Positions 3,132 through 23,715 of a DNA stretch of 64,000 bases are shown here, piece by piece (position 1 is the first letter of the stretch; every line of letters starts with the position of its first letter). The notes below the pieces were generated by a model that searched no databases, had not been told where the DNA came from, and saw only the letters and a program-made list of their open reading frames with translations. The DNA lies in contig NZ_BPWE01000002.1 of NCBI RefSeq assembly GCF_020884755.1, positions 186,001-250,000 on the forward strand. Direction: 5' to 3'. A program made the position numbers and the translations under genes. Origin of the DNA: Bifidobacterium mizhiense. Lineage in GTDB: Bacteria > Actinomycetota > Actinomycetes > Actinomycetales > Bifidobacteriaceae.

Positions 3132-3204
3132 GCCACTTTAGCTCAGTTGGCAGAGCGTCTCACTCGTAATGAGAAGGTCGACAGTTCGATTCTGTCAAGT
3201 GGCT
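3132..3204 (+). tRNA. tRNA-Thr (anticodon CGT)
   Basis: The 73-base sequence folds as a complete cloverleaf: acceptor GCCACTT pairs with AAGTGGC, the D arm is GCTC/GAGC, the anticodon stem is TCTCA/TGAGA with loop CTCGTAA, and the T arm is GACAG/CTGTC with loop TTCGATT. The discriminator base is T. CCA is not encoded. It reads ACG codons. It is followed 40 bases later by tRNA-Leu, and the pair appears to be the ancestor of decayed copies found between the surface-protein genes to the right. Confidence 0.97.
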
Positions 3205-3244
3205 CTTTCACCAGCTGCCCTTTCAACGGCAGGGCATGTCGTAC

Positions 3245-3325
3245 GCGCGAGTGGCGTAATGGTAGCCGCGCAGGATTTAGGTTCCTGTGTCTTCGGACGT
3301 GTGGGTTCGAGTCCCATCTCGCGCA
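3245..3325 (+). tRNA. tRNA-Leu (anticodon TAG)
   Basis: A class II tRNA of 81 bases. Acceptor GCGCGAG pairs with CTCGCGC, the anticodon stem CAGGA/TCCTG encloses the loop TTTAGGT, and a long variable arm (GTGTCTTCGGACGT) precedes the T arm with GTTCGAGTCCC. The discriminator is A, as leucine tRNAs require. CCA is not encoded. It reads CUA (and possibly CUG) codons. Confidence 0.97.
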
Positions 3326-3337
3326 CAGGTATTAAGA

Positions 3338-3378: not shown

Positions 3379-6312
3379 TCAGTGGCGGCTTTCCTGCTTG
3401 TTCCTCAGGCAGGCCACGAAGCCCACCAGACCAAGGGCTATCAGCAGCATGATCTTGAGCATCGAAAGCGGCCAGCCGCCGGTAAGAGGCAGAGAGGACG
3501 TCGAGGGGCGGAATTCCAGCTCATGCGACACTGACGCCGACTGGTTCCCGCCCTGGAACCTGCCTTGGGCATCAGGGCCCTCGGCATCGTCGGAAAGCAC
3601 CTGAGCAGTAAACTCACCCTGGTTGACACCCTCAGGCGGAGTCGCCTGCCATGAACCCTGGTCCCCCACAATGACATCGGTGCTGTTGTTGCCATTTCCA
3701 GGCCAGGTTATCCGGACAGCGGTCCCCTTGGTCTCGGGAATCTTCCTGTCCCCGTCCACATACTTGTAGGCTTTGCCAGCCACTTGGAAGACGTCGTACC
3801 GCTCCAAGACCAGTGTGGTGGGTGTCATGTCGACCTTGCGCTCGATGGATGCCGGGTTCGAGCGTAGGTTCATCGGGTTGATCATCTCAACCTGGAAGGT
3901 ATAGGTCTGCGTCTCGTCACTGCCGTTATAGCCAGCGAACTTGTCAGCAGGAATATCCAGCGACCAGGACCAGGTGGAATCCGCAGTCTTGGTCAAGCCC
4001 AGCGTAAGACCTGTCGCGGAATCCGCGACGGAAGACACCGTGCTGACCACCGCATCCCTCTGGAAGGTGTTGGCCGAGGTGGTCAGCAGACTGGTCCAAT
4101 CAGAGACAGCATTCTGCTTCATGGAAATGGCCATCCTGGAATCCGTCATCCCCAGCCCTCCCGAGGACCATGCCGTATACACAGGCGACACCTCACCCTT
4201 GAATGTCACCACCGAATCCGCCGGCAGACTCCCGTTTACCGTATGGGGCACCGTGACCGCGAGCTTGCTCGCATCCGGGACGTTTTCACCCGAGACGAAA
4301 TAAGCCGTGCCGATATTCGAGAAGAAGGAGGTCAGGCCGAACCCGGAGATAGACTCAGTTACCCAGGCATGATAACGTCTGTAGCCGCTGTACTTGTTGC
4401 CCGGATCCGGGGACGGATACAGCTTGTTCGTGTCATGTATCCGCCAGGAGCCCCCCTGCTTGCTGCCGGTGTCGACCTCGCATACGGTTTCACCCAACCT
4501 GAATCCCCATGTGTCCGAGCTTTTCACCAGGTCATCACCATTCGCGCCCTGGCCCTCCACAATGGGATTGTTGGGATCCTCGCCGTAGAGAGTGACCTTG
4601 TTAGGGCGCGCAGCATCCTTTGAGGGCGTGCACTCACCACTGATTACCGGATCAAGCTTGGTCGTATACACGCTCCCAGAAGCATCCAAATCGGCATCCG
4701 CATCATTCTCGATCTTGGTGATGGTCGGATCATCGGGACGAGGCACATCATACTTATAAAAGGCACTATTGATCGTCCAGCCCGCAGAGATATTCGTATC
4801 CTTCTCAACGGTGGACATACCATCGTTTATCCCTACAAGACCAGCACTCTTGGGGTTGTACACTTCAGGACTGACGGTACAAGCGCTGCCGTCCCGATTC
4901 GTAGTAACAGGCCAAGTGACCATCTTGAAGTAACCGTCAAGATCCTGCTTCTCCTTGGCCTCCTTGAAATCAATCCCGCCATCATCCTTCTGAGCAGGCA
5001 TGAGATTGCCATCCTTATCAGTGGCAAAAAGCACGTTGGGGTTGTCGAGATACCTCGGATCCTTTGGGCTCACGTTGAAAGCGGAATACTTACTGACTTG
5101 GGCTGCCTTGCTGGTCGTAGTAGTCGCCGTATTAGGAGACGGCTGCTGCCCTGTCACCAGGACCGGCTCAGGGGTCAGCTCATTGACAGGCACCCACTCG
5201 CTGTCCTTGAGAGCCACCCACTGGTAATAGTACGAATTGGTCTCAGAACAGATGCCATCAGGATTATCACTTGTACTGCCACGCGGATTCAGCCAGTACA
5301 CGAAGAAGGAGCGTGCCGGAGCTGTGCCCGGAGCAGTGGCATTTATATCTCCCATTGTATTATCGCTATAAGCCGGAAAACCATAGTCGGTCACCATACC
5401 CCAATTAGCCTGATGGTTTTGATAAAGATTTGGGTTGCTGTCCCATCCAACCCAAGAATACGGGCCACTGCACTTCATATCTGCTTTGCTGTCCAAGCAG
5501 TAACCCATATACACTTTCATCTGTTTGTCCTGGGACATGCTCGCCGTGATATTTGAATATCTATCCTGAGCCTGTAAATCACTCATGGAAGCCGGATCAA
5601 AACTTGTGCAGTTATTTGTAGTCCAAGACCAGGAAGAAGTGCCGCAAGACAGGATGTCATTCTGGTCACCAACGATGGCAAAGACATTCAAGGGTTCGGG
5701 GTGACCGCCAACCGCAAATTTCGCGGGATCTGTAGACTTATCCGCGATGTTCATATCGCCCTCGATGGATATGGTCAGGTAGTCGTACAAACCAGAATTG
5801 ATTATCTTATGAACGGTGAAGAACTCTTTGTGGTTCTGGGCCCAGGCTAAGGCTCCATCATAAGCGTTGGCATTTTTGTTGCTGTCTACGTAATCATCTG
5901 GAGTAATAGTGTTCATATACCGCACGCGTCGGTAATAGCTAGGATTGTCAGAACCAACAAACTGATATATGAAAGATAGATTGCATTGTGACGGATTACT
6001 GGTGTCAGTTTGACCAACACCGACACAATCCGGCTTGAATTCATTGTGTTTCACACGCAGGATGAAGTCCATGCGCAGCTCATCCTGGTAGGCATCGATC
6101 CTGTCGTTGAAGGCCATCATCCTATAGAGCTTCGGTGTTCTGCTGGCCGTTTCGTCCTGTCCATCAACGGCATTGGCCCGATTGGCCGAAAGGGCGCTCA
6201 GCCCCAGCGGAACAACCATGGCCAGCGTCGCCAGAAGGGTTACCAGAACGGCGATGATCTGACGGCTGACATGCTGCGGACCCTCGGCGCTCCGTTCTTG
6301 TAATCGCTTCAA
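3379..6312 (-). CDS. Surface protein 1 of a six-copy tandem family, LPXTG type
   Basis: Function unknown; predicted cell-wall-anchored adhesin-like protein of 977 residues. Numbering from the ATG two codons upstream: a signal peptide with hydrophobic core 21-43 and an Ala-X-Ala site near 50; a cysteine-containing N-terminal region to about 390 ending in the shared stretch ELTPEPVLVTGQQPSPN; a middle region; then three segments that look like bacterial Ig-like domains (about 529-676, 684-830, 831-937); finally LPLTGGW at 943-949, a membrane helix and the tail RNKQESRH, the layout of a sortase substrate. Ten cysteines (98, 112, 225, 237, 274, 283, 357, 480, 563, 613) match all five paralogues. 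I chose the TTG at 6312, seven bases after a GGGGG ribosome-binding tract; the ATG at 6318 is only one base from it. The N-terminal half is closest to copy 6, the far end of the array. The promoter box seen in copies 3-5 is degraded here. No sortase gene lies in the window. Confidence 0.9.
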   Translation of the reverse strand: MKRLQERSAEGPQHVSRQIIAVLVTLLATLAMVVPLGLSALSANRANAVDGQDETASRTPKLYRMMAFNDRIDAYQDELRMDFILRVKHNEFKPDCVGVGQTDTSNPSQCNLSFIYQFVGSDNPSYYRRVRYMNTITPDDYVDSNKNANAYDGALAWAQNHKEFFTVHKIINSGLYDYLTISIEGDMNIADKSTDPAKFAVGGHPEPLNVFAIVGDQNDILSCGTSSWSWTTNNCTSFDPASMSDLQAQDRYSNITASMSQDKQMKVYMGYCLDSKADMKCSGPYSWVGWDSNPNLYQNHQANWGMVTDYGFPAYSDNTMGDINATAPGTAPARSFFVYWLNPRGSTSDNPDGICSETNSYYYQWVALKDSEWVPVNELTPEPVLVTGQQPSPNTATTTTSKAAQVSKYSAFNVSPKDPRYLDNPNVLFATDKDGNLMPAQKDDGGIDFKEAKEKQDLDGYFKMVTWPVTTNRDGSACTVSPEVYNPKSAGLVGINDGMSTVEKDTNISAGWTINSAFYKYDVPRPDDPTITKIENDADADLDASGSVYTTKLDPVISGECTPSKDAARPNKVTLYGEDPNNPIVEGQGANGDDLVKSSDTWGFRLGETVCEVDTGSKQGGSWRIHDTNKLYPSPDPGNKYSGYRRYHAWVTESISGFGLTSFFSNIGTAYFVSGENVPDASKLAVTVPHTVNGSLPADSVVTFKGEVSPVYTAWSSGGLGMTDSRMAISMKQNAVSDWTSLLTTSANTFQRDAVVSTVSSVADSATGLTLGLTKTADSTWSWSLDIPADKFAGYNGSDETQTYTFQVEMINPMNLRSNPASIERKVDMTPTTLVLERYDVFQVAGKAYKYVDGDRKIPETKGTAVRITWPGNGNNSTDVIVGDQGSWQATPPEGVNQGEFTAQVLSDDAEGPDAQGRFQGGNQSASVSHELEFRPSTSSLPLTGGWPLSMLKIMLLIALGLVGFVACLRNKQESRH

Positions 6313-6564
6313 TACCATACCCCCAAACCAAGATATAATTATCCCTTAGAGCGGCTCTACTTTGCTTTTAAATTGTCCCCAATGGTTTCGACCATATCAT
6401 AGAGATAATAAAATAGCATCATCGCTTTTTCTTTACACGCTTTACGAACACTGAAATTGCAAGCACGATCTGGGATACATATAGGGCGTTTCGCAACCGG
6501 TATTGCGGCGACCGTTTACGGTCCGTTTACAATCTTCATCTGACTGGTCTGGGTCGGAGTGGAG

Positions 6565-6660
6565 GCCACTTTGGCATGGCAAGATCGACAGTTCGATGCC
6601 GTCAAGCGACTCTTACTCCAGCTGCCTTCAGACGTGCGGGTTCGAGCCCCATCTCGCGCA
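6565..6660 (+). pseudogene. Decayed copy of the tRNA-Thr / tRNA-Leu pair
   Basis: Bases 6565-6611 match tRNA-Thr at both ends: the 5' GCCACTTT, and the 3' half around GATCGACAGTTCGAT up to the acceptor. The D arm and most of the anticodon arm are missing. The linker CCAGCTGCC also matches. Bases 6627-6660 match the last third of tRNA-Leu (variable arm, T arm GGGTTCGAGCCCCATC, acceptor 3' strand), and the first two thirds are deleted. Neither can fold into a tRNA. The order and strand are those of the intact pair at 3132-3325, so this is a duplicate that decayed in place. Confidence 0.88.
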
Positions 6661-6675
6661 CAGAAAATGCCAGCA

Positions 6676-6722
6676 AGGCCTGCCCCCATCCTCCTCATTC
6701 CATAGAGGTGAGCGCAGGCCCT
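6676..6722 (-). terminator. Hairpin downstream of surface protein gene 2
   Basis: GGCCTGC (6677-6683) pairs with GCAGGCC (6714-6720), and an inner CCTC/GAGG pair (6693-6696, 6705-6708) extends the fold. It occupies the same place as the T-tailed terminators of genes 4-6 but lacks a clear T-run. Confidence 0.55.
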
Positions 6723-6739
6723 ACCTTATGCCACCGAAA

Positions 6740-9625
6740 TCAGTATCGGCTTTCCTGCCTGTTCCTCAGGCAGGCCACAAAGCCAGCCAGACCCAATATC
6801 AACATCAACAGGATTTTGAGCACGGAAAGCGGCCATCCTCCGGCGAAGGGCAGGGATGAGGTGGAGGGCCGGAATTCCAGCGCATGCGACACCGCAGCCG
6901 ACTCGTTTCCTCCCTGGAAGTTGCCGCTTTGAGGATCACTGCTTTCAGCATCATCGGAGGCAACCTGAGCGGTGAATCGTTCCTGGTTTATCCCCTCAGG
7001 CGGAGTCGCCTGCCATGAACCTTGGTCTCCCACGGCGACATCGGTGCTGCTATTGCCGGGCCAAGTTATATGAACCATGGTGCCTTTGGTCTCAGGAACC
7101 CTGGTGTTGCCGTTGACATACTTATAGGCCTTGCCCGCCACTTGGAAGACGTCGTACCGCTGCAAGGTCAGAGTAGTTGGCGTCATGTCGACCGTCCGGT
7201 TGATGGAAGCCGGATCCGAAGGGACATTCAGAGGGTTGATCATCTTGACCTGGAAGGTATACTTCTCTGTCTCGTCGTCACCGTTGTAGCCGGTGAACTT
7301 GTCAGCTGGTATGTTCAAGGTCCAGGACCAGGTGGAAGCCGTCGTCTTGACAATATTGAGCACAGAGCCCGATGTCGGATTCGTGGCGGAAGACTTGGTG
7401 CCGGCTGCTGCATCCCGCTGGAAGGTGTTGGCCGGAGTGGTCAGCAAGGGCGTCCAATCCGAAGCAGTGTTCTGCTTCATGGAAACGGCCATCCTGGAAT
7501 CAGTCATCCCCAGCCCTCCCGAGGACCAGGCTGTATATATAGGTGAAACAGTCCCCTTGACGGTGACGACCGAATTCGCCGGTAGAATCCCGTTTTTCGT
7601 ATGGGGGACTGTGACAGAGAGCTTGCCATCCGGAGCATTCTCGTTGGAGACGAAATAGGCTGTGCCTATGTTAGAGAAGAAGGAGGTCAAGCCGAACCCG
7701 GAGGCGGACTCGGTCACCCAGGCATGATAGCGCCTGTAACCGTTGTACTTGTTGCCCGGATCCGGCGACGGGTACTGTTTATTGGTGTCCTGTATCTGCC
7801 AGGACCCTCCCTGCTTGCTCTTGGGATCGACCCTGCATACGGTCTCTCCCAGCTTGAACCCCCAGGAGTCCGAGCTTTTCACCAGATCGTCACTGCTCTT
7901 GCTCTGCCCCTCCTTGAAAGGATTGCCAGGATCCTCCCCGAACAAGGTAACCGTGTTGGGATGTGTGTCATCTTTGGAGGGAGTGCACTCACCGCTGACC
8001 ACAGGATCAAGATTGCCGGTATAGACGCTTCCTGAGGCATTCAAGGAACCGTCAGTATCATTCTGGATGTTGGTGATCGTCGGATCATCAGGACGAGGCA
8101 CATCGTACTTATAGAATGCAGTATCGATAGCCCATCCCGCGTCCAAATTCGTGTTTTTCTGAGCTGCAGGCATGTCGTCTGTTATCCCAACAAGACCATC
8201 CTGTTGCGGGTCATATATCTTAGTGGTGACTTCAGGAGTGCTTGCCGTCGGCTTGCACTGGGTGCCATCGTCATTAGTAGTGACAGGCCAAGTAACTAAT
8301 TTGAAATAACCATCGAGCTGCTGATACTCTTGAGCTTTCTTGAAGTCGATTGAACCGTCAGGCAACTGGGCGGGCATGGGGTTCCCATTCTTATCAGTTG
8401 CATACAATTCGTTCGAATTGCCCGAACTTGTTGGCAGATTGTACGCAGTGTTGTCATTGACCTGATATTGAAGACCCCAGGAACTGGTCAAGCCATTCAC
8501 GGCTGGCTTCTGACCTGTTACTAGCACCGGTTTAGGCGTCAACGCATCGACAGGAACCCATTGGCTATCCTTCTGTCCTACCCATTGGTAGTAATAAGAG
8601 TTGGTCGTGGAGCATATTCCACCTGCGCTGTTATTTCCACGCAAATTGAACCAATACACAAAGAAGGATTTGGGGGGCGCCACTCCTGGAACCGGCTTAT
8701 CTCCTATAGGAAATCCATAATCCGTTACCATGCCCCAATTGGCCTGGTGACCGCCATAGAGAAGGGGATTGTTGTTCCAGCCAACCCAGGAACCAGGCCC
8801 GCTGCACTTCGGATGCGGACTATCACCTAGGCAGGTGCCCATATACAACTTGATGCCCTTACCCTGGTCTGCAGTGATATTGGCAACTCTGTCTTGCACA
8901 TTACTACTGATAGTGCTGGGATCGAAGGTGCAGTCATTCGTAGTGTAGTCCCATGGAGAAGTCCATGGGGAACTTCCGCACAACAACGTATTGTTTTGCT
9001 GACCAACGATTGCGTAGACGTTCAAAGGTTCCGGATAACCGCCAGTGACGTAATATTTCGGATCATTGGAGGTATCCATATAGGACAAATCACCTTCTAT
9101 GGATACAGCAAGAAAATCATATAAACCAGAGTTGATTACTTTATGAACCGTAAAGAACTCGTCCTCGTTTTCCGCCCATTGCTGAGCACCGCCAGTAGGG
9201 TCGTTAGGGTTTGTCGAAATAGTATTCAGATACCGTATCCTGCGATAGTGGGACGGATTTTGTGCTCCTTCAAACTGATATGCGAAAGACAAATTGCAGT
9301 TTACTGAATCATAAGGAGAAGTATCACGCATCGGCACGCATTGCGGATCGAAATCGTTGTGTCTCACGCGCAGAATGAAGTCCATACGCAGCTCATCCTG
9401 GTAGGAATCAATCTTGTCGTTGTAGGCCAACATCTTATAGAGTAGCGGCTTCCGGCTTGCCGTCTCATCTTGCCCATTAATGGCATTGGCCTGACTGGCC
9501 GACAAAGCGCTCAGCCCTAGCGGAACAACCATGGCCAGGGTCGCCAGAAGAGTAATCAAAACAGCGACTATAGGGCGATCCACATGCCGTGGACCCTTAT
9601 TGCCCCTTTCATGCAATCGGTTCAA
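6740..9625 (-). CDS. Surface protein 2 of the tandem family, divergent, LPFAG anchor
   Basis: Predicted secreted surface protein of 961 residues with the architecture of its neighbours: signal peptide, N-terminal cysteine-containing region, three Ig-like segments, C-terminal helix and basic tail. It is the most divergent copy, especially in the N-terminal half (for example TPKPVLVTGQKPAVN for the usual TPEPVLVTGQQPSPN), yet keeps all ten cysteines. The sorting signal reads LPFAGGW instead of LPLTGGW: the codon for the essential threonine is GCC, one base from ACC, so standard sortase cleavage may fail or a different sortase may be used. The start was placed at the TTG (9625), seven bases after GGGGGG; a GTG one codon earlier (9628) is also possible. 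The -10 box of its promoter is degraded (TGCACT). Function unknown. Confidence 0.88.
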   Translation of the reverse strand: MNRLHERGNKGPRHVDRPIVAVLITLLATLAMVVPLGLSALSASQANAINGQDETASRKPLLYKMLAYNDKIDSYQDELRMDFILRVRHNDFDPQCVPMRDTSPYDSVNCNLSFAYQFEGAQNPSHYRRIRYLNTISTNPNDPTGGAQQWAENEDEFFTVHKVINSGLYDFLAVSIEGDLSYMDTSNDPKYYVTGGYPEPLNVYAIVGQQNNTLLCGSSPWTSPWDYTTNDCTFDPSTISSNVQDRVANITADQGKGIKLYMGTCLGDSPHPKCSGPGSWVGWNNNPLLYGGHQANWGMVTDYGFPIGDKPVPGVAPPKSFFVYWFNLRGNNSAGGICSTTNSYYYQWVGQKDSQWVPVDALTPKPVLVTGQKPAVNGLTSSWGLQYQVNDNTAYNLPTSSGNSNELYATDKNGNPMPAQLPDGSIDFKKAQEYQQLDGYFKLVTWPVTTNDDGTQCKPTASTPEVTTKIYDPQQDGLVGITDDMPAAQKNTNLDAGWAIDTAFYKYDVPRPDDPTITNIQNDTDGSLNASGSVYTGNLDPVVSGECTPSKDDTHPNTVTLFGEDPGNPFKEGQSKSSDDLVKSSDSWGFKLGETVCRVDPKSKQGGSWQIQDTNKQYPSPDPGNKYNGYRRYHAWVTESASGFGLTSFFSNIGTAYFVSNENAPDGKLSVTVPHTKNGILPANSVVTVKGTVSPIYTAWSSGGLGMTDSRMAVSMKQNTASDWTPLLTTPANTFQRDAAAGTKSSATNPTSGSVLNIVKTTASTWSWTLNIPADKFTGYNGDDETEKYTFQVKMINPLNVPSDPASINRTVDMTPTTLTLQRYDVFQVAGKAYKYVNGNTRVPETKGTMVHITWPGNSSTDVAVGDQGSWQATPPEGINQERFTAQVASDDAESSDPQSGNFQGGNESAAVSHALEFRPSTSSLPFAGGWPLSVLKILLMLILGLAGFVACLRNRQESRY

Positions 9626-9958
9626 CACGCTACCCCCCACACCACTATGCGACCATCTTCAGGGTCAGATGGACTGCACGCTAGATTTGTCGCCAGTGCA
9701 GACCACGAAACCCTAGAGCACAAGTACTGCATCTTCACTTATGACATCTTCTTTTTCCCTTTTACATGCTTTAAGAGTACCGAGACTGAAAGCGTGATCT
9801 GGGATTCAAACAAGGGTGTTTCGTGACCGTCCAGAGTCTTGACTAAACACAGTCTGCATTGGTGGGATGGGGGTCGGTTGAACAACGGCAGAACCCCCTC
9901 CCCACCCAGCCTTTCAACTTCATGAGGTGGGGGCGGGCCCTGGCTTATACTTTCGGGA
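9626..9958. other. Spacer between surface protein genes 2 and 3
   Basis: Contains the ribosome-binding tract and 5' block of gene 2, including an intact -35 TTGTGC (9718-9723, minus strand) but a degraded -10, then a strongly diverged remainder with no readable tRNA relic beyond a short AACAACGGCAG match to the tRNA-Thr/Leu linker, and the hairpin of gene 3. No protein gene is supported. Confidence 0.6.
9900..9932 (-). terminator. Hairpin downstream of surface protein gene 3
   Basis: CCCCACC (9900-9906) pairs with GGTGGGG (9926-9932) around a 19-base loop, immediately behind the stop codon of gene 3. Position matches the terminators of the other copies. No T-run is evident. Confidence 0.5.
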
Positions 9959-12862
9959 TCAGTGGCGGCTCTCCTGCCTGTTTCTCAGGCAGGCCACGAA
10001 GCCGGCCAGGCCAAGGGCTATCAGCAGCATGATCTTGAGCACCGAAAGCGGCCATCCGCCGGTCAAAGGCAAAGCCGAGTTGGAAGGCCGGAACTCCAGC
10101 GCGTGAGATACCGAAGCTGACTGGTTTCCGCCCTGGAACCTGCCCTGGGCGTCAGCACCTTCGGCATCGTCGGAATGCACCTGGGCAGAGAACTTACCCT
10201 GGTTGATCCCCTCGGGAGGAACCGCCTGCCATGAACCATGATCCCCCACAACCGCATTTGTGCCGCTGCCGCCGGGCCAGGTCACATGCACCACGGTGCC
10301 CTTGGTCTCGGGAACCTTTGTATCACCGTCCACGTACTTGTAGGCTTTGCCCGCCACCTGGAAGACGTCATACCGCTCCAGGACCAGAGTAGTCGGCGTC
10401 ATGTCGACCTTCCGCTCAATGGACGCCGGCTCTGACCGGCTGCTCGTCGGGTTAACCATTTCAACGCGGAAATCATACATTTGCTTCTCGTCGCTGCCGT
10501 CGTAGCCGCTGAACCTGTCAGCGGGTATATTCAGCGTCCAGGACCATGTGGATGCCGTTGTCTTGTTCAGGCCCAGCGTGAGGCCCGTCGCAGAATCTTC
10601 CACGGAAGACGTGGTGCCGGCTGCTGCATCCCTTTGGAAGGTGTTGGCCGGAGTGGTCAGCAAGGGCGTCCAGTCCGAGGCGGTCTTCTGCTTCATGGAA
10701 ACAGCCATACTGGAATCCGTCATCCCCAGCTCTCCTGAGGTCCAGGCCGTATATACAGGAGACGCCTCGCCATTGAACACAACAACTGAATCCGCCGGCA
10801 GGCTCCCGTTGACGGTATGAGGCACAGTGACCGCGAGTTTGCTCGCATCCGGTGTGTTCTCCTCGGAGACGAAATAGGCCGTCCCAACGTTCGAGAAGAA
10901 GGAGGTCAGACCGAACCCGGAGATAGACTCGATCACCCAGGCATGGTACCGCCTGTAGCCGCTGTACTTGTTGCCTGGGTCCGGTGAAGGATACTGCTTA
11001 TTGGTGTCCTGTATCTGCCAGGACCCTCCCTGCTTGCTCTTGGGATCGACCTTGCAGACAGTCTCGCCCAGCCTGAACCCCCACGTGTCCGCGGCTTTCA
11101 CCAGGTCCCCGCCATTCGAACGCTGCCCACCCGCAATCGGATTGGCAGGATCCTCGCCATAGAGAACAACCTTGTTGGGACGCGCAGCATCCTTGGAGGG
11201 CGTGCACTCACCACTGACCACCGGATCAAGCTTCGACGTATACACGCTCCCCGAAGAATCGAGAGCACTGTCGGCATCGTTCTCAATCTTCGTGATCGTC
11301 GGATCATCAGGACGAGGCACATCATACTGATAGAAGGCACTATTGATCGTCCAGCCCGCAGAAATATTTCGTTCTATATCCGAGCTGTCCATGCCGTCAC
11401 GTATCCCGACGAGACCTTTTTGATCAGGGTTGTATACCTCAGGGCTGACGGTACAAGCGCTGCCGTCCCGATTCGTGGTGACTGGCCAGGTGACCATCTT
11501 GAAATAGCCATCAAGATCCTGCTTGGCCTTGGCCTCCTTGAAATCAATCCCGCCGTCAGCTTTCTGGGCAGGCATAGGATTGCCGTTCTTGTCAGTGGCA
11601 AACATCTCATTGGGATTATCCGCTTGTTGAGGCAAGTTGAAAGCCGAATACCTACTGACTTGGGCTGCCTTGCTAACCGTGGTGGTGACCGAATTGGGAG
11701 ACGGCTGCTGGCCTGTTACCAGGACCGGCTCAGGAGTCAACTCATCAACAGGCACCCACTCGCTATCCTTCAAAGCCACCCATTGATAGTAATAGGAATT
11801 AGTTTCAGAACATATGCCATCAGGATTATCACTTGTACTGCCACGCACATTCAACCAATACACGAAGAAGGACCGTGCCGGGGCTGTTCCTGGAGCAGTG
11901 CCGGCGATTGCCCCAGTAGCAGTGCTCTTATAGTCAGGAAAACCATAGTCGGTTACCATGCCCCAATTAGCCTGATTGCCACCATAGAGATTTGGGTTGC
12001 TGTTCCAGCCTACCCAAGAATACGGGCCGCTGCACTGAAGATCAGCGCCCTTGCCCAGGCATGTCTGCATATACAAGGTGAAATCCTTGCCATCTGCCGT
12101 TAAGGCTGAGGTAATGTTGGATACCCTGTCCGGCGCATTAATCATGGTGTCAGGGTTAAAATTGCGACAATTATCGATTCCAGAGCTCCAACTCCATGAA
12201 CTACCTGGACGAAGACAAGATAGTGCGTCGCCCTGTTTGCCAACAACTGCGTATATATTCACCGGCTCGCTGGCACCACCAGGCTGATAGTATGACGCAT
12301 CAGCAGAATTCTTAAGGGCCAGATCACCCTCGATGGAAACGGTCAGATAATCATATAGACCGGAATTGATTATCGTGTGCACGGTGAAATACTCATCTTG
12401 ATTTTGTGCCCACTTATATGCTCCGGACCAGGGCTGATCCGAGGATGATGCTGAAGCTATGGTGTTCAGATACTTTATTCTGCGATAAAAGGAAGTGTCA
12501 TCTGACCCCTTGTACTGATAGACAAAGGCCAGATTACAACTGCCCTTGGTGTCGGCACCGTTGGTAGCATCGGCGCAAGAGGGGTCGAACTCGTTGTGCT
12601 TCACGCGCAGGATAAAGTCCATGCGCAGCTCATCCTGATAGGAATCAAGCTTGTTGTTGTAGCCCAACATCCTATAGAGCAGAGGCTTCCTGCTGGCCGT
12701 CTCATCCTGCTCATCGATGGCATTGGCCTGACCAGCCGAAAGCGCGCTCAGCCCTAGCGGAACAACCATGGCCAGGGTCGCCAGAAGGGTTACCAGAACG
12801 GCAATTATCGGACGGCTCACACCTTGTGAACCCTTAGCGCCCCGTTCTTGCAAACGCTTCAA
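9959..12862 (-). CDS. Surface protein 3 of the tandem family, LPXTG type
   Basis: Predicted cell-wall-anchored surface protein of 967 residues, function unknown. Signal peptide with hydrophobic core and ALSAGQANA site; N-terminal region of the type shared with copies 4 and 5 (TIASASSSDQPWSGAYKWAQN); three Ig-like segments; LPLTGGW, membrane helix, tail RNRQESRH. All ten family cysteines are present. The TTG at 12862 lies seven bases after GGGGGG, and an intact promoter (12931-12959) sits about 70 bases upstream, so this copy is likely expressed. The stretch following VLVTGQQPSPN resembles copy 1 in part (SKAAQVS) and copy 4 in part (short NLPQQADNPN form), a sign of mosaic origin. Confidence 0.9.
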   Translation of the reverse strand: MKRLQERGAKGSQGVSRPIIAVLVTLLATLAMVVPLGLSALSAGQANAIDEQDETASRKPLLYRMLGYNNKLDSYQDELRMDFILRVKHNEFDPSCADATNGADTKGSCNLAFVYQYKGSDDTSFYRRIKYLNTIASASSSDQPWSGAYKWAQNQDEYFTVHTIINSGLYDYLTVSIEGDLALKNSADASYYQPGGASEPVNIYAVVGKQGDALSCLRPGSSWSWSSGIDNCRNFNPDTMINAPDRVSNITSALTADGKDFTLYMQTCLGKGADLQCSGPYSWVGWNSNPNLYGGNQANWGMVTDYGFPDYKSTATGAIAGTAPGTAPARSFFVYWLNVRGSTSDNPDGICSETNSYYYQWVALKDSEWVPVDELTPEPVLVTGQQPSPNSVTTTVSKAAQVSRYSAFNLPQQADNPNEMFATDKNGNPMPAQKADGGIDFKEAKAKQDLDGYFKMVTWPVTTNRDGSACTVSPEVYNPDQKGLVGIRDGMDSSDIERNISAGWTINSAFYQYDVPRPDDPTITKIENDADSALDSSGSVYTSKLDPVVSGECTPSKDAARPNKVVLYGEDPANPIAGGQRSNGGDLVKAADTWGFRLGETVCKVDPKSKQGGSWQIQDTNKQYPSPDPGNKYSGYRRYHAWVIESISGFGLTSFFSNVGTAYFVSEENTPDASKLAVTVPHTVNGSLPADSVVVFNGEASPVYTAWTSGELGMTDSSMAVSMKQKTASDWTPLLTTPANTFQRDAAAGTTSSVEDSATGLTLGLNKTTASTWSWTLNIPADRFSGYDGSDEKQMYDFRVEMVNPTSSRSEPASIERKVDMTPTTLVLERYDVFQVAGKAYKYVDGDTKVPETKGTVVHVTWPGGSGTNAVVGDHGSWQAVPPEGINQGKFSAQVHSDDAEGADAQGRFQGGNQSASVSHALEFRPSNSALPLTGGWPLSVLKIMLLIALGLAGFVACLRNRQESRH

Positions 12863-12930
12863 TACAATACCCCCCAAATCACAATAAAATCATGCTCTAG
12901 AACAGATCAACTCTGCTTTTGACTTACCCC

Positions 12931-12959
12931 CAATTAAGGCAACTGCGCATAGAGCACAA
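12931..12959 (-). promoter_or_regulatory. Promoter of surface protein gene 3
   Basis: On the minus strand TTGTGC (12954-12959) and TAATTG (12931-12936) are separated by 17 bases. The same hexamers with the same spacing occur at the same distance upstream of genes 4 and 5, with different spacer sequences, which supports selection on the hexamers. Confidence 0.6.
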
Positions 12960-13167
12960 CAATGCATCTAAATTTTTCTTTGCCTTTTCAAGGCTACAGA
13001 AATTAAGGGCAATATCTGGGATTCAAATCGGGTGTTTTGCAGCCATTCAAGTTCTTGACCCTGACAGGCCCGGCAACCAGCCGACGAGAAGCAATATGCT
13101 GTCTTCCCTCAGTCCGGTCCAAATTGGTTGCGAATACTGCTCCGGCAATGGCAGCAGTACAGGAATT

Positions 13168-13222
13168 TAAAAAACAGGGCCCGTGCTCACCTTCATGGAA
13201 TGAAAAGATGAGTGCGGGTCCT
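13168..13222 (-). terminator. Terminator of surface protein gene 4
   Basis: Fourteen-base arms with a few mismatches (13176-13189 and 13209-13222) are followed on the minus strand by a run of six T. A typical intrinsic terminator. Confidence 0.85.
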
Positions 13223-13239
13223 GGCTTATACTTTCGGGA

Positions 13240-16143: not shown

Positions 16144-16211
16144 TACAATACCCCCCAAACCACAATGAAATCATGCTCCAGCGCAGATCGACTCTGCTTT
16201 TGACTCATCCC

Positions 16212-16240
16212 CAATTAAGCCAATTGAATGTGGAGCACAA
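16212..16240 (-). promoter_or_regulatory. Promoter of surface protein gene 4
   Basis: TTGTGC (16235-16240) and TAATTG (16212-16217) on the minus strand, 17 bases apart, as for genes 3 and 5. Confidence 0.6.
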
Positions 16241-16443
16241 CAATGCATCTTCATTTTCATTACGACTTCAAAGCGTACTGAGATAGAAAGCGTGATCCGG
16301 GATTCAGGTAGGGTGTTTCGCGGCTGTTCAAGTCTTGCCCCTGGTAGGCCCGGCACCCGACTGACAAGAAGTAAATATTGTCTTCTTCCGACCGGTCTGG
16401 ATTAGGAGCAAATGTTGCTTTGACAACGGCAGCGGCAGGGGGA

Positions 16444-16500
16444 TTAAAAAACAGGGCCCGCGCTCATCTCCATGGAATTGGAAGGATGAGAACGGGCCCC
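16444..16500 (-). terminator. Terminator of surface protein gene 5
   Basis: Long arms (about 16453-16468 and 16485-16500) form a GC-rich hairpin followed on the minus strand by TTTTTT. Homologous to the terminators of genes 4 and 6. Confidence 0.85.
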
Positions 16501-16517
16501 GGCTTATGCTTCCGAGG

Positions 16518-19424
16518 TCAGTGCCCGCTTTCCTGCCTGTTCCTCAGACATGCCACGAAGCCGACCAGCCCCAATGACATCAGCAGTAGGATCCTGAGCA
16601 CCGAAAGCGGCCATCCGCCGGTCAAAGGCAAAGCCGAGTTGGAAGGCCGGAACTCCAGCTCGTGAGACACCGCAGCCGACTGGTTCCCTCCCTGGAACCT
16701 GCCCTGGGCGTCAGCACCCTCAGCATCATCGGAAAGCACCTGGGCAGTGAACTCACCCTGGTTGATCCCTTCAGGAGGAACCGCCTGCCATAGGCCTTGG
16801 TCCCCCACAGTAGCATCCGTGCCGCCACCGCCAGGCCAGGTCACATGCACCACGGTCCCCTTGGTCTCGGGAACCTTCGCATCCCCGTTCACATACTTGT
16901 AGGCCCTGCCCGCCACCTGGAAGACGTCATACCGCTCCAGGGCCAACGTGGTGGGCGTCATGTCGACCTTCCGCTCGACAGAGGCCGGACCCGATCGGAT
17001 GTTCATCGGATTAACCATTTCAACGCGGAAATCATACGTCTGCGTGTCGTCGCCCCCGTTATAGCCGGTGAATCTGCCGGCGGGTATGTTCAGCGTCCAG
17101 GACCATGTGGACGCCGCCGTCTTGGACAGGCTAAGCGTGAGGCCCGTCGTGGGATCCGTGACAGAAGACGCGGTGTTGACCGCCGCACCCCTCTGGAAAG
17201 TGTTGGCCGGAGTGGTCACCAAGGGCGTCCAGTCTGAGGCAGTCTTCTGCTTCATCGAAACAGCCATCCTGGAATCCGTCATCCCCAGACCCCCCGAGGA
17301 CCAGGCGAGATAAGTAGGTGATACTTCACCCTTGAATGTGACTGCTGAACCTGCGGGCAGGCTCCCGTTTACCGTATGAGGCACGCTGACCGAGAACTTG
17401 CTCGCATCCGGAACGTTCTCGCCCGAGACGAAATACGCCGTCCCGATATTCGAGAAGAAGGAGGTCAAACCGAACCCGGAGATAGACTCGACCACCCAGG
17501 CATGGTACCGCCTATACCCGCTGTACCTGTTACCCGGGTCCGGAGACTGGTATTGCTTGTTCGTGTCCTGTATCTGCCAGGACCCTCCCTGCTTGCTTTT
17601 GGGATCGACCTCGCACGCAGCCTCACCAAGTCTGAACCCCCACGTGTCCGAACTTTTCACCAGGTCCCCGCCATTCGAACCTTGCCCACCCACAATCGGA
17701 TTGGCTGGATCCTCGCCGTAGAGAACAACCTTGTTGGGACGCGCAGCATCCTTGGAAGGCATGCACTCACCACTGACCACCGGATCAAGCTTGGTCGTAT
17801 ACACGCTCCCCGAAGCATCCAAACCCGCATCCCCATCATTCTCGATCTTGGTGATAGTCGGATCGTTAGGACGGGGCACATCATACTTGTAAAACGCCGT
17901 ATTAATCGTCCAACCCGCAGACAGATTTCGGTCTATATCCGAACTGTTCATGCCGTCACGTATACCGACGAGACCCTTTTTATCAGGGTTGTACACTTCA
18001 GAACTGACCGTACAAGTGTTGCCATCCCGATTCGTGGTAACAGGCCAGGTAACAAATTTGAAGTAGCCATCAAGATCTTGCTTCTCCTTGGCCTCTTTGA
18101 AATTGATGGAACCGTCCGAATTCTGGGCAGGCATCGGATTGCCGTTCTTATCGGTCGCAAAAAGCACATTGGGATTATTGAGATACCTTGGGTCCTTTGG
18201 ACTTACGTTGAAAGCCGAATACCTGCTGACTTGATATTGCTTACCTACCGTGGTGGTGACCGAATTAGGAGACGGCTGCTGACCTGTCACCAGGACCGGC
18301 TCAGGTGTCAACTCATCAACAGGCACCCACTCGCTATCCTTCAAAGCAACCCACTGGTAATAATAGGAATTGGTCTCGGAACATATTCCATCAGGGTTAT
18401 AGATGGTACTGCCACGCGGATTCAGCCAGTACGTGAAGAAAGACCGCGATGGGGCTGTGCCCGGATTGGTGCCATTGATACTTCCAACACTGGTGTCAGA
18501 ATAGGCAGGAAAACCATAATCGGTCACCATGCCCCAATTAGCCTGATTCCCGCCATAGAGATCTGGCTGGTCATTCCACCCAATCCAAGAGTACGGTCCG
18601 CTGCACTGAAGATCAGCGCCCTTGCCCATGCAGTCGCCCATATATAGCTTGAAGTTCTTGCCGCTCGCCGTTAAGGATGAAGTAATATTCGATGTCCTAT
18701 CCGGCGCGTTGATCATCGTGTCAGGCTTAAAAGTGCCACAATCGGCAATACCCCAGCCCCAGGAAATACCGCCACAAGACAGTGCCCCCTGCTGTTGGCC
18801 AACGACCGCAAAGACGTTCAAGGGCTCATCAGTACCACCAGCTTTATAATCTGACACATTGCTGGAAGTATCCCTGAGATTCAAATCGCCCTCGATGGAA
18901 ATGGTCAAATAGTCGTATAAACCAGAGTTGATTATCGTGTGTACGGTGAAGTACTCATCTTGATTTTGTGCCCACTTGTAGGCTCCGGACCAGGGCTGAC
19001 CCGAGGATGATGCTGAAGCTATAGTGTTCAGATACTTAACCCTGCGATAGTATGACTGATTTGTCGAACCAAGATACGGATAAACAAAGGACAAATTACA
19101 AGCACCCCTGGTATCGACACCACCGGAGGCATTGGCGCAAGAAGGGTCGAAATCGTTATGTTTCACACGCAGGATGAAGTCCATGCGCAGCTCGTCCTGA
19201 TAGGAATCGATCTTGTCGTTGTAGGCCAACATCCGATAGAGCAGGGGTTTCCTGCTGGCTGTTTCATCCTGTCCGTTGACGGCATTGGCCTGACTGGCTG
19301 ACAGAGCGCTCAGCCCAAGCGGAATCACTATGGCCAACGTCGCCAGAAGGGTTACCAGAACGGCGATGATCTGACGTTTCATATGTTGTGGACGCTTGGT
19401 GCCCCGTTCCTGCAAACGCTTCAA
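16518..19424 (-). CDS. Surface protein 5 of the tandem family, LPXTG type
   Basis: Predicted cell-wall-anchored surface protein of 968 residues, function unknown. Signal peptide with IIAVLVTLLATLAIVIPLGL core; ten conserved cysteines; three Ig-like segments; LPLTGGW, membrane helix, tail RNRQESGH. It is a visible hybrid: the first part of the N-terminal region is of the copy 3/4 type (TIASASSSGQPWSGAYKWAQN), then switches to DEPLNVFAVVG and LYMGDC as in copies 1 and 6, and later shares FNVSPKDPRYL with copy 1. The open frame extends 24 codons upstream of the TTG at 19424, but that extension runs into the promoter (19494-19522); the TTG lies seven bases after GGGGGG as in every other copy. Confidence 0.9.
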   Translation of the reverse strand: MKRLQERGTKRPQHMKRQIIAVLVTLLATLAIVIPLGLSALSASQANAVNGQDETASRKPLLYRMLAYNDKIDSYQDELRMDFILRVKHNDFDPSCANASGGVDTRGACNLSFVYPYLGSTNQSYYRRVKYLNTIASASSSGQPWSGAYKWAQNQDEYFTVHTIINSGLYDYLTISIEGDLNLRDTSSNVSDYKAGGTDEPLNVFAVVGQQQGALSCGGISWGWGIADCGTFKPDTMINAPDRTSNITSSLTASGKNFKLYMGDCMGKGADLQCSGPYSWIGWNDQPDLYGGNQANWGMVTDYGFPAYSDTSVGSINGTNPGTAPSRSFFTYWLNPRGSTIYNPDGICSETNSYYYQWVALKDSEWVPVDELTPEPVLVTGQQPSPNSVTTTVGKQYQVSRYSAFNVSPKDPRYLNNPNVLFATDKNGNPMPAQNSDGSINFKEAKEKQDLDGYFKFVTWPVTTNRDGNTCTVSSEVYNPDKKGLVGIRDGMNSSDIDRNLSAGWTINTAFYKYDVPRPNDPTITKIENDGDAGLDASGSVYTTKLDPVVSGECMPSKDAARPNKVVLYGEDPANPIVGGQGSNGGDLVKSSDTWGFRLGEAACEVDPKSKQGGSWQIQDTNKQYQSPDPGNRYSGYRRYHAWVVESISGFGLTSFFSNIGTAYFVSGENVPDASKFSVSVPHTVNGSLPAGSAVTFKGEVSPTYLAWSSGGLGMTDSRMAVSMKQKTASDWTPLVTTPANTFQRGAAVNTASSVTDPTTGLTLSLSKTAASTWSWTLNIPAGRFTGYNGGDDTQTYDFRVEMVNPMNIRSGPASVERKVDMTPTTLALERYDVFQVAGRAYKYVNGDAKVPETKGTVVHVTWPGGGGTDATVGDQGLWQAVPPEGINQGEFTAQVLSDDAEGADAQGRFQGGNQSAAVSHELEFRPSNSALPLTGGWPLSVLRILLLMSLGLVGFVACLRNRQESGH

Positions 19425-19493
19425 TACAATACCCCCCAAAATCACAATGAAATCAAGCTCTAGACCAGATCGACTTTGCTTTTGACTTATCCC

Positions 19494-19522
19494 CAATTAA
19501 GCCAACTGTATATAGAGCACAA
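19494..19522 (-). promoter_or_regulatory. Promoter of surface protein gene 5
   Basis: TTGTGC (19517-19522) and TAATTG (19494-19499) on the minus strand with 17 bases between them, identical in plan to the promoters of genes 3 and 4. Confidence 0.6.
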
Positions 19523-19663
19523 AAATGCAGCTTCATTTTTTACTACGCAGCTAAGAGTACAGAAATTAGAAGCATTATCTTGGATTCAGATAAAATATTC
19601 TATAATCGGCGTTTCGCGACCGTCTATGGTCTTGATTCCAGCTGGTCTGGATTGGAGGGCTGG

Positions 19664-19716
19664 GCCGTTTTGGCTCAATTGACAGAGCACCTGATTGGTA
19701 ATGCTGTCAAGCAGCT
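19664..19716 (+). pseudogene. Decayed tRNA-Thr copy with tRNA-Leu flank
   Basis: Aligns with tRNA-Thr from its first base: a mutated acceptor strand (GCCGTTT), the D arm (GCTCAATTGACAGAGC) and GGTAAT from the anticodon arm. A deletion removes the 3' anticodon stem, variable loop and most of the T arm, and the end (GCTGTCAAGCAGCT) matches the tRNA 3' end. The following bases CTTTCACC and GGCAACGACAGG match the linker, and GGCACGAATAGTG near 19757 weakly matches the start of tRNA-Leu. It cannot fold as a tRNA. It retains the half that the relic at 6565 lost, so the two copies decayed independently. Confidence 0.82.
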
Positions 19717-19791
19717 CTTTCACCAAGCACCTTTGGCAACGACAGGACACACTGTAGGCACGAATAGTGTATTGGCACCCCCATGAAAGTT

Positions 19792-19845
19792 AAAAAAACA
19801 GGGCCTGCCCTCACCTCCTAATTCCTCGGGGTGAGAACGGGCCCT
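19792..19845 (-). terminator. Terminator of surface protein gene 6
   Basis: Arms at about 19800-19815 and 19830-19845 form a hairpin followed on the minus strand by a run of seven T. Homologous to the terminators of genes 4 and 5. Confidence 0.85.
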
Positions 19846-19862
19846 GGCTTATACTTTCGGGA

Positions 19863-22787
19863 TCAGTGGCGGTTTTCCTGCTTGTTCCTCAGGCAGGCCA
19901 CGAAGCCCACCAGGCCAAGGGCCATCAGCAGCAGGATCCTGAGCACGGAAAGCGGCCAGCCACCAGTAAGAGGCAGGGAGGATGTCGAAGGCCGGAACTC
20001 CAGCTCCTGCGACACCGAAGCTGACTGGTTCCCGCCCTGGAACCTGCCCTGCGCGTCAGGGCCCTCGGCATCATCCGAAAGCACCTGGACGGCGACATCC
20101 CCCTGCTTCATCCCCTCAGGAGGAACCGCCTGCCAAATGCCCTGGTCCCCCACAGCCACATCCGTGCCGGTATTGTCAGGCCAGGTCACATGCACCATGG
20201 TCCCCTTGGTCTCAGGAACCTTCGTATCACCGCCCGCATACTTGTAGGCCCTGCCGGCCACCTGGAAGACATCATGACGATCAAAGGTCAGCGTGGTAGG
20301 CGTCATGTCGACCTTGCGCTCGACAGAGGCTGGGCCCGAACGAAGGTTCATCGGGTTGATCATCTCAACCTGGAAGGTATAGGTCTGCGTCTCGTCGCTG
20401 CCATCGTAGCCAGTGAACCTGTCAGCGGGTATGTTCAGCAACCAAGACCAAGTAGAAGCCGCCGTCTTGGTCAGGCTAAGCGTGAGGCCGGTCGTAGAAT
20501 CTGAAATGGAAGATGCGGTGCCGACTGCTGCATCCCTCTGGAAAGTGTTGGCCGGAGTAGTTACCAAGCTGGTCCAGTCCGAGGCAGTGTTCTGCTTCAT
20601 GGAAATGGCCATCTTGGAATCAGTCATCCCCAGCTTCCCCGAGGACCAGGCCGTATACACAGGCGACACCTCACCCTTGAACGTGACCACCGAACCTGCC
20701 GGCAGGCTCCCGTTGACCGTATGGGGCACCGCCACCGAGAACTTGGCCGCATCCGGCACGTTCTCGCCCGAGACGAAATAAGCCGTGCCAACATTCGAGA
20801 AGTAGGAAGTCAGGCCGAACCCTGACGTGGACTCAACCACCCAGGCGTGATAGCGCCTGTAGGTGTTGTACTTATTGCCGGGATCCGGCGACGGATACTG
20901 CTTATTGGTGTCCTGTATCCACCAGGACCCTCCCTGCTTGCTGCCAGTGTCGGTCTCGCAAACAGCTTCCCCCAGCCTGAACCCCCACGTGTCCGAGCTT
21001 TTCACCAGGTCATCGCCATTTGTGCCCTGACCATCCGCAATCGGATTGGTGGGATCCTCTCCATACAGGACAACCGTATTAGGATGCTTGTCATCCTTGG
21101 AAGGCGTGCACTCACCGCTGATTACCGGGTCAAGCTTGGTCGTATACACGCTTCCAGAAGCATCCAAGCCGGCATCAGCATCGTTTTCGATCTTGGTGAT
21201 CGTAGGATCATCAGGACGCGGCACATTATACTTATAAAAAGCAGTATCAATCGTCCAACCCGCAGAGAGATTCGTATCCTTTTGCGCGGCGGACATGTTA
21301 TCGTCAATCCCCACAAGACCAGCGCTCTTGGGGCTGTACACCTCAGGGCTGACGGCTGTACATTCCGTGGCATCAGAATTCCTGGTGTCAGGCCAGGTCA
21401 CCAGCTTGAAATAGCCGTCAAGATCCTGCTTCTCCTTGGCCTCCTTGAAATCAATCCCGCCATCAGCCTTCTGAGCAGGCATAGGATTGCCATCCTTATC
21501 AGTCGCAAAAAGCACGTTGGTGGTATTCGCATACTTTGGGTCGGTCGGATTAACGTTATAAGCGCCATTGGTATTGACCATGCCCTGCAGTCCGTAGGTG
21601 GTAGTCAAAGTGTTGGGACTCGGCTGCTGGCCTGTCACCAGGACCGGCTCAGGAGTCAGTTCCTTAACAGGCACCCACTGGCTGTCCTTAAGAGCCACCC
21701 ACTGATAGTAATAGGAACTGGTCTCAGAACATATGCCATTGGTTTTGTTGCCTGGACCACGCAAGTTCATCCAATACACGAAGAAAGACCGTGCCGGGGC
21801 CGTGCCCGGGGCTGTGGCATTTATATTTCCAACCGTACCATCGCTATAAGCCGGAAAACCATAATCGGTCACCATACCCCAATTAGCCTGATGGTTTCGA
21901 TAGAGATATGGGTTGCTGTCCCACCCAACCCAGGAATATGGGCCGCTGCATTGCAGGTCGTCTCCTCCGCTACCCAAGCAGTCACCCATATACACTTTCA
22001 TCTGTTTATCCTTCGATAAACTCGCGGTGATATTTGAATATCTATCCTGCAAGTTGCTCATGGAGGCTGGATCGAAAGTTGAGCAGGTTTCGGTACCCCA
22101 TGCCCACGAAGAACTACCGCAAGACAGGATGGTATTCTGATCACCAACGATAGCAAAGACATTCAAGGGTTCAGGGTGACCACCAGCCACGAACTTTGCG
22201 GGATCTTTAGACTTATCCGCAATGTTCATGTCGCCTTCGATGGATATAGTCAAGTAGTCGTATAAACCCGAATTGATTACCTTATGAACAGTAAAGCGCT
22301 GCAGATGATTATCAGCCCACGCTGTAGCTCCATCATATGCATACCCAGTTTTGTTATTTTCAAGATAATCATCTGGAGTTATAGTGTTTATATACTTTAC
22401 ACGATGATAATCTGCAGGGTTATCAGAACCAACATACTGATATACAAAAGATAAATTGCAATTTGACTTACCACCGGTGTCTGCCTTACCAAGGTCGATA
22501 CAATCCGGCTTGAACTCGTTGTGTTTCACGCGCAGGATGAAGTCCATGCGCAGCTCATCCTGATAGGTATCGATCCTGTCGTTGAAGGCCATCATTCTAT
22601 AGAGCAGAGGCTTCCTGCTCGCCGTCTCGTCCTGTCCATCAACGGCATTGGCCTGACTGGCCGACAGAGCACTCAGCCCAAGCGGAACGACCATGGCCAG
22701 TGTCGCCAGAAGGGTTACCAAAACGGCGATGATCGAACGGTTCACGTGCAGCGATCCCTTATTGTTCCGTTCTTGCAATCGCTTCAA
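19863..22787 (-). CDS. Surface protein 6 of the tandem family, LPXTG type
   Basis: Predicted cell-wall-anchored surface protein of 974 residues, function unknown, first in transcription order. Its N-terminal half matches copy 1 at the other end of the array (RMMAFNDRID, TITPDDY, NVFAIVGDQN), whereas part of the middle reads MVNTNGAYNVNPTDPKY, distinct from all others. Ten conserved cysteines, three Ig-like segments, LPLTGGW, membrane helix and tail RNKQENRH complete the layout. The TTG start at 22787 follows GGGGG by seven bases. The promoter equivalents are TTATCT (22878-22883) and GTATTG (22855-22860), 17 bases apart and weaker than those of genes 3-5. No tRNA relic lies upstream, so this is the outer edge of the array. 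Confidence 0.9.
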   Translation of the reverse strand: MKRLQERNNKGSLHVNRSIIAVLVTLLATLAMVVPLGLSALSASQANAVDGQDETASRKPLLYRMMAFNDRIDTYQDELRMDFILRVKHNEFKPDCIDLGKADTGGKSNCNLSFVYQYVGSDNPADYHRVKYINTITPDDYLENNKTGYAYDGATAWADNHLQRFTVHKVINSGLYDYLTISIEGDMNIADKSKDPAKFVAGGHPEPLNVFAIVGDQNTILSCGSSSWAWGTETCSTFDPASMSNLQDRYSNITASLSKDKQMKVYMGDCLGSGGDDLQCSGPYSWVGWDSNPYLYRNHQANWGMVTDYGFPAYSDGTVGNINATAPGTAPARSFFVYWMNLRGPGNKTNGICSETSSYYYQWVALKDSQWVPVKELTPEPVLVTGQQPSPNTLTTTYGLQGMVNTNGAYNVNPTDPKYANTTNVLFATDKDGNPMPAQKADGGIDFKEAKEKQDLDGYFKLVTWPDTRNSDATECTAVSPEVYSPKSAGLVGIDDNMSAAQKDTNLSAGWTIDTAFYKYNVPRPDDPTITKIENDADAGLDASGSVYTTKLDPVISGECTPSKDDKHPNTVVLYGEDPTNPIADGQGTNGDDLVKSSDTWGFRLGEAVCETDTGSKQGGSWWIQDTNKQYPSPDPGNKYNTYRRYHAWVVESTSGFGLTSYFSNVGTAYFVSGENVPDAAKFSVAVPHTVNGSLPAGSVVTFKGEVSPVYTAWSSGKLGMTDSKMAISMKQNTASDWTSLVTTPANTFQRDAAVGTASSISDSTTGLTLSLTKTAASTWSWLLNIPADRFTGYDGSDETQTYTFQVEMINPMNLRSGPASVERKVDMTPTTLTFDRHDVFQVAGRAYKYAGGDTKVPETKGTMVHVTWPDNTGTDVAVGDQGIWQAVPPEGMKQGDVAVQVLSDDAEGPDAQGRFQGGNQSASVSQELEFRPSTSSLPLTGGWPLSVLRILLLMALGLVGFVACLRNKQENRH

Positions 22788-22993
22788 TACGAAACCCCCA
22801 AATCCCGATGGAATCATCTGCTAGAACAGATAAGCTCTGTTTTTAAGTTGTCCCCAATACCGCCGACTGTATCACAGAGATAAAAAAATCGCACCTTCGC
22901 GTTTTCTTTACATAAATCAAGCATAACCGGGCGCTCAGAGCATAATTGTCGACGCTTCACGACCGTTCGCCGTACGGAATCTATAAGGATTTA

Positions 22994-23680: not shown

Positions 23681-23715
23681 ACCGATCCTCCTCGCTGAAA
23701 TACCTGTTCCGGACG

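Follow-up and report, generated by a model that had tools for sequence, protein, structure and literature searches.

Bifidobacteria from the guts of bees carry LPxTG surface proteins with RCC1 repeats, which are, as far as the available sections of two genome studies go, extracellular, encoded by tandem genes and variable in number (Ellegaard 2015, PMC4449606; Bottacini 2012, PMC3447821). The available part of the former calls them 'generally not positional orthologs' and also describes tandem genes, again of variable copy number, for large SLAP/DUF1542 surface proteins of honeybee Lactobacillus Firm-5; these have 1500-4600 residues, a YSIRK signal and SLAP anchoring domains. The locus discussed here is an array of six tandem genes, g1 to g6, for wall-anchored proteins in a 64,000-nucleotide stretch of Bifidobacterium mizhiense (contig NZ_BPWE01000002.1, positions 186,001 to 250,000; below, the window). 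As far as these sources describe them, both families resemble the array in having tandem surface-protein genes of variable number in bee-gut symbionts, and the RCC1-repeat proteins also share its bacterial group, LPxTG anchor and extracellular placement. Unlike the RCC1-repeat proteins, however, the array copies are positional orthologs, and none of the Firm-5 features (length, signal, anchoring domain) occur in the array proteins. Membership of the RCC1 family was considered and rejected, since neither RCC1 repeats nor a Flg_new domain were among the Pfam matches of four window copies and 36 members of the family.

Stalks with immunoglobulin (Ig)-like repeats, which the array proteins also have, are known from adhesins such as staphylococcal Bap, SiiE and MpAFP. 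The array differs from these in that its head shows no sequence relation in the searches made, its stalk is short, and its genes lie in tandem. Antigenic variation arrays of the vls or pilE/pilS type, on the other hand, consist of one expression site and silent donor cassettes, with conversion aimed at the exposed domain. The present array instead holds six full-length genes, each with a predicted signal peptide, an anchor and a conserved leader. The locus probably encodes sortase-anchored, adhesin-like proteins of bee-gut Bifidobacterium, with a fixed head for each slot of the array, stalks that are exchanged between slots, and several fixed binding specificities displayed at once.

The six genes are consecutive open reading frames (ORFs) of the minus strand, spanning 3379-22817 and encoding 966-992 residues each when read from the most upstream start; an end at 22787, given earlier, reflects a different start choice. 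The preliminary description of this DNA had all six proteins sharing signal peptide and anchor. Their translations bear this out: each begins with a signal peptide, continues as a long ectodomain and ends in a sorting signal (LPLTG in five, LPFAG in g2) with a hydrophobic stretch and a basic tail. The window genome contains two PF04203 (sortase) matches above the cut-off; Pfam Gram_pos_anchor, at E <= 0.1, was matched by only 1 of 36 family members. With signal peptide, sorting signal and genomic sortase all present, g1-g6 are assigned as predicted sortase-anchored (LPxTG) proteins, which would be displayed on the cell surface. All six are complete, their pairwise protein identity is 68-84%, and the window holds no truncated silent cassettes.

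Each protein appears to be a head of ~440 residues on an Ig-like stalk. The head is aromatic-rich, cysteine-rich and predicted to be extracellular, and, in line with the first impression that the N-terminal region resembles no familiar domain, sequence comparison with Pfam, NCBIfam and the PDB gave no match for it; a PDB sequence search with one array protein returned nothing useful. Fold searches with the whole model gave matches that were taken up by the stalk, while a single head-only search gave no catalytic fold among the structural matches listed, an absence that is not proof. Among eight distant loci, picked because of multi-head matches, five (L111-L115) have two heads in tandem above a stalk part (undetected in L115), L116 reads head-stalk-head-stalk, and the remaining two have the usual order. 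These double-head single-chain proteins (L111-L116) sit in other Bifidobacteriaceae genomes.

The family is narrowly distributed. The window genome (G000, 2.09 Mb) is closest, among named records, to B. apousia W8102, B. mellis, B. choladohabitans and strains filed as B. asteroides, all of which we take to come from bees. With one copy as the query, matches came from 20 of 59 genomes, each belonging to the window's own genus group, and a 13-row profile (at most four candidates scored per genome) found a match in 43 of 189 genomes of the bacterial family. Of these 43, 37 had the head region (20 of the 27 genomes in the window's genus group, plus 17 from a second one), and the other six had part of the stalk only. 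In a phylum sample of 396 genomes, the head occurred only in the window's own genome, and one other genome gave a weak stalk match. A scan of named genomes yielded 24 loci, all titled Bifidobacterium (B. indicum, B. xylocopae, B. aemilianum, ESL strains and others), whose hosts, two metagenome bins aside, are presumably honeybees, carpenter bees and stingless bees.

Seven other genomes carry the family at the site between rdgB and tRNA-Leu/tRNA-Thr/manC, with five copies in G014, G024, G005, G001 and G017, four in G013 and at least four in G011, where the contig end interrupts the array. A single copy is found at the same locus in G010, G003 and G025, and distant members in B. xylocopae, B. 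indicum and others lie there as well, some genomes carrying further copies elsewhere. The preliminary description had expected recombination breakpoints and an array that varies among related strains. Breakpoints are present, but, with one genome compared per species, gene order and slot identity are constant over eight genomes, and copy number ranges from 4 to 6.

Slot identity is seen in a whole-gene tree of 44 copies (ORFs of at least 600 residues from 12 loci, the broken last G011 copy and the G008 fragments being excluded; all trees omit the divergent homologs and G020, and the stalk tree also omits G008_p3). Here, g6, g4, g3 and g1 group with their positional counterparts as classes A, C, D and F, with support of 1.00 each. 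g2 groups with five of its seven positional counterparts (class E); the other two, from G001 and G017, constitute class X. The extra copy g5 (slot B) has no counterpart in the tree and no ortholog among the compared genomes, and its own history is less clear. The head types fall as originally read, one shared by g1 and g6 and another by g3, g4 and g5. Best hits between whole proteins stay within their own slot in 238 of 240 comparisons, a count that covers neither slot B nor the single-copy genes.

Core genes of the eight array genomes differ by a synonymous divergence (dS) of 0.11-0.25. Between slots, dS is 0.56-2.98 in the heads (residues 50-390), near saturation at the top, and 0.42-0.91 in the stalks (residues 720-930). 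The slot splits appear to be old, except that the C-D split (head dS 0.56) need not be, because dS within slots itself exceeds the core value in most slots (head means of 0.28-0.41; 0.12 in slot A). Slot-A heads differ between species by a dS of 0.118, below that of flanking core genes (0.196), and slot-A stalks by a higher 0.333; perhaps one slot-A head spread recently between species. The ratio of nonsynonymous to synonymous divergence (dN/dS) within slots is 0.05-0.39 over all regions and 0.07-0.23 in the head, with no sign, on average, of diversifying selection within slots. Positions that are invariant within slots but show at least three states among them account for 12% of residues 89-520, against 0-2% in the other regions, a pattern that would fit a different, maintained specificity for each slot.

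The patchy similarity first noticed among the window genes is borne out by a 3SEQ-like permutation test, in which 27 of the 120 ordered triplets are positive (p <= 4e-4). None of the 15 gene pairs of the window reaches significance in a test for silent-site runs (lowest p 0.116). Over 74 pairs in the eight genomes, three runs were equalled in 0 of 500 shuffles, and all three lie in the stalk: G014 A-F (residues 843-919), G024 A-F (706-959, an unbroken series of 85 sites) and G024 C-D (914-974). Other places show weaker nominal runs, two of which fall in heads. In G024, A and F are identical from residue 604 onward except for one 30-residue window, and copies p1 and p2 of G008 have near-identical stalks beneath clearly diverged heads. 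The stalk tree rejects clades F (p 0.00086) and E (p 0.0002), while the head trees retain A, C, D, E and F as clades. The signal-peptide end is also homogenised between slots. Because the strongest tracts, the stalk-tree rejections and the near-identical stalks of G024 and G008 contrast with the slot-specific heads, recent exchange acts chiefly on the stalk, older exchange having reached the heads too.

Gene conversion, as proposed in the preliminary description, is thus real in the family, but the accompanying idea that it reshuffles the exposed half over a fixed stalk is not supported, the strongest recent tracts being in the stalk and the heads being slot-specific. Two smaller proposals have also changed. 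The TITNIQND patch is indeed present in g4, yet it was inherited rather than recently transferred from copy 2 in the window genome, because it is widespread: of the 6 slot-C genes, 4 have it letter for letter and 2 with a single change, and the patch or a close form also occurs in both X genes, 5 of the 6 genes of slot E and 2 of the 3 single-copy relatives. The midway switch of type proposed for g5 is better read as a B/C/D-like tract in slot F (g1), found across genomes.

One real exchange of a head has taken place, at slot E, in 2 of the 8 genomes: the X heads belong to G001 and G017, and the E heads to the six other array genomes. E and X diverge by 0.09-0.14 up to about residue 82, by 0.24-0.52 in residues 83-513, and by 0.04-0.16 beyond (0.24 in one window), numbered along trimmed g6 (ORF number = +10). 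The exchanged cassette covers approximately residues 90-520 and matches the head as a module. In approximately unbiased (AU) tests, a single clade of E and X heads is rejected (p 0.00014), and their union with the single-copy genes added is not (p 0.15); the stalks of E, X and single-copy genes form one clade. The available portion of a study of Plasmodium (PMC10919680) describes dimorphic merozoite surface proteins, shaped by gene conversion, in which an exposed region likewise comes in two strongly diverged versions at a single locus. Those proteins are unrelated to the array, however, which is bacterial and has the second version in only two of eight genomes.

A bolder reading, which we put forward tentatively, is that the head represents a new family of extracellular domains, restricted to bee-associated Bifidobacterium and interchangeable on a shared stalk. 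Slots would have kept the heads apart over the age of several species while the stalks were homogenised, and heads would move only as whole cassettes, as at slot E/X. Such a standing repertoire of fixed receptors would be the reverse of an antigenic-variation array.

Several results weigh against a strict division into fixed heads and exchanged stalks. With the head alone, the same-slot best hit falls to 206 of 240 (24 of the 34 misses are between E and X, and 10 are C taken for D), and the stalk alone still gives 224, its misses being mostly F taken for D or A. Slot-F heads carry an old D-like stretch at 300-410, within the B/C/D-like tract at about residues 300-423 that recurs across genomes, and nominal silent-site runs between D and F occur in heads at residues 305-355 (p 0.016 in G014 and 0.010 in G001). 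Stalk A as a single clade is not rejected (p 0.06). The silent-site test, with 500 shuffles, has a p floor of 0.002, which makes Bonferroni correction over 74 pairs impossible, and the lower between-slot divergence of signal peptide and stalk could partly reflect constraint. Finally, promoter and terminator scans gave no excess over shuffles (13 found versus 15.8 expected, and 17 versus 16.1).

The mosaic triplets, the swap of a whole head cassette at slot E and the extra copy g5 could all be expected of an antigenic variation array, whose exposed half is continually reshuffled to evade host recognition or phage. This is quite improbable, given that slot order and heads are conserved over eight genomes, the heads are under purifying selection, the window's pairs lack a significant silent-site tract, and its genes are all complete. 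Conversion in the vls and pilE/pilS arrays targets the exposed domain, whereas recent conversion here is strongest in the stalk of other arrays, weak nominal head runs notwithstanding. Fast head reshuffling was rejected on the strength of the slot-specific heads, the stalk-centred tracts and the best-hit counts. Phase variation by short tandem repeats was also rejected, as only two weak 12-base arrays, both within genes, were found. The dimorphism at slot E might instead be a balanced trans-species polymorphism maintained by phage predation or competition, the proteins serving mainly as phage receptors or in inter-bacterial contact. We consider this unlikely: exchange between species explains the pattern equally well, X occurs in two genomes only, and no link leads from the locus to phages, even though the tree of flanking genes does not pair G001 with G017 as sisters (support for where G017 falls is weak: 0.06, 0.72) and the six others have E heads.

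Bee bifidobacteria break down plant polysaccharides, and an aromatic-rich, cysteine-rich extracellular head would suit an enzyme or polysaccharide-binding module for food glycans (pollen), with slots as substrate specificities. That the head matches no Pfam, NCBIfam or PDB sequence, and that the structural matches listed include no catalytic fold, leaves this doubtful. Plain old duplicates that drift, with functionally alike slots and a stalk that only looks homogenised because of higher constraint, seem highly improbable. The low within-slot dN/dS along the entire protein would agree with them, but heads exceed stalks in synonymous divergence between slots as well, for which protein constraint alone is insufficient, and near-identical stalks lie under diverged heads in G024 and G008.

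Fixed heads on exchanged stalks would have arisen as follows. The array would have grown by tandem duplication at the conserved site between rph-rdgB and tRNA-Leu-tRNA-Thr-manC, the duplicated unit holding a gene and the tRNA pair at least once. Each slot's head type would have been kept under purifying selection since before the compared species split, with gene conversion homogenising the stalks and the signal-peptide end, and a whole head cassette replaced only rarely (slot E/X). A cell would then most likely show several fixed binding specificities at once, for which the host surface, food particles such as pollen, and other bacteria are candidate ligands. Adhesion is suggested by the architecture, the restriction to one group and the slot-specific conservation; simultaneous expression, ligand binding by the heads and selection against head mixing are what we infer. 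The contact with the host first suggested for this gut-symbiont family is plausible.

The open-access literature searched neither mentions this protein family nor offers an explanation of the hindgut persistence of bee-gut Bifidobacterium; the available part of a stingless-bee paper (PMC10128065) discusses adhesion for Gram-negative structures only. For hindgut persistence, the array provides a short candidate list of six genes, one putatively new domain and one exchangeable cassette, and a repertoire of fixed receptors, if true, could be one of the main factors that determine colonisation of the bee gut. The array also serves as a natural experiment in which a tandem family homogenises one half of a protein and keeps the other diverse, and the slot E/X pair allows one to ask whether the ligand changes when the head alone is replaced.

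Table 1. Features of the array and its boundaries (window positions)
Feature	Position	Strand	Basis
g1, slot F, surface protein, LPLTG anchor	3379..6318	-	ORF; head tree (clade F)
g2, slot E, surface protein, LPFAG anchor; two alternative heads in this slot in other genomes	6740..9640	-	ORF; E/X profile; AU tests
g3, slot D, surface protein	9959..12877	-	ORF; trees
g4, slot C, surface protein	13240..16158	-	ORF; trees
g5, slot B, surface protein, extra copy, only in the window genome among eight arrays	16518..19496	-	ORF; tree
g6, slot A, surface protein	19863..22817	-	ORF; trees
g6 head region in structure model, ORF residues 59-528	21234..22643	-	
g6 stalk, Ig-like/Fn3-like beta-sandwich domains, ending at LPLTG	19965..21233	-	
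Intact tRNA-Thr(CGT), array boundary	3132..3205	+	ARAGORN
Intact tRNA-Leu(TAG), array boundary	3245..3326	+	ARAGORN
tRNA-Thr remnant between g2 and g1, 84% over 32 bases	6581..6612	+	blastn
tRNA-Leu remnant between g2 and g1, 90% over 39 bases	6623..6661	+	blastn
rdgB-like gene, opposite array boundary	22994..24016	-	Pfam Ham1p_like 4.7e-56; synteny

The array is flanked by tRNA-Leu, tRNA-Thr and manC on one side and by rdgB and rph on the other (Table 1). Its G+C content is 0.50-0.57 in bins fully within it and 0.58-0.65 in nearly all bins outside. The tRNA-Thr remnant is present in 8 of 8 arrays and the tRNA-Leu remnant in 7, and G008 has a second, nearly intact tRNA pair between its first two copies. 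Because these remnants and this second pair lie between copies, at least one duplication unit contained a gene together with the tRNA pair. G021 represents an empty site, with rdgB, tRNA-Leu, tRNA-Thr and manC in order and no family gene between them; for the other six of the seven head-less genomes of the genus group, the stretch fetched contained no tRNA or manC. A conserved leader with a G run at its end directly precedes each gene start, and in three of five spacers (e.g. 12878-13239) a GC-rich inverted repeat with a long loop and a T run was seen by eye in the alignment.

Internal stop codons in the genome-search matches were set aside as a biological signal: most of them presumably lie upstream of the real start, the ORFs starting inside the match. 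The third family copy of G008 (L039, 9114-12025) is split into three open frames. Slot-E/X copies with an inspected C-terminus have the sorting motif LPFAG in place of LPLTG, as does the single copy of ESL0200; G010 and G003 have LPLTG, and a different sortase preference in slot E/X is possible. In the slot-E copy of G005 (L034 / L051; L051:19842-22646), a stop codon stands right behind LPFA, past which the genome-search match continues in frame, and this protein may lack its membrane part and be released instead of anchored.
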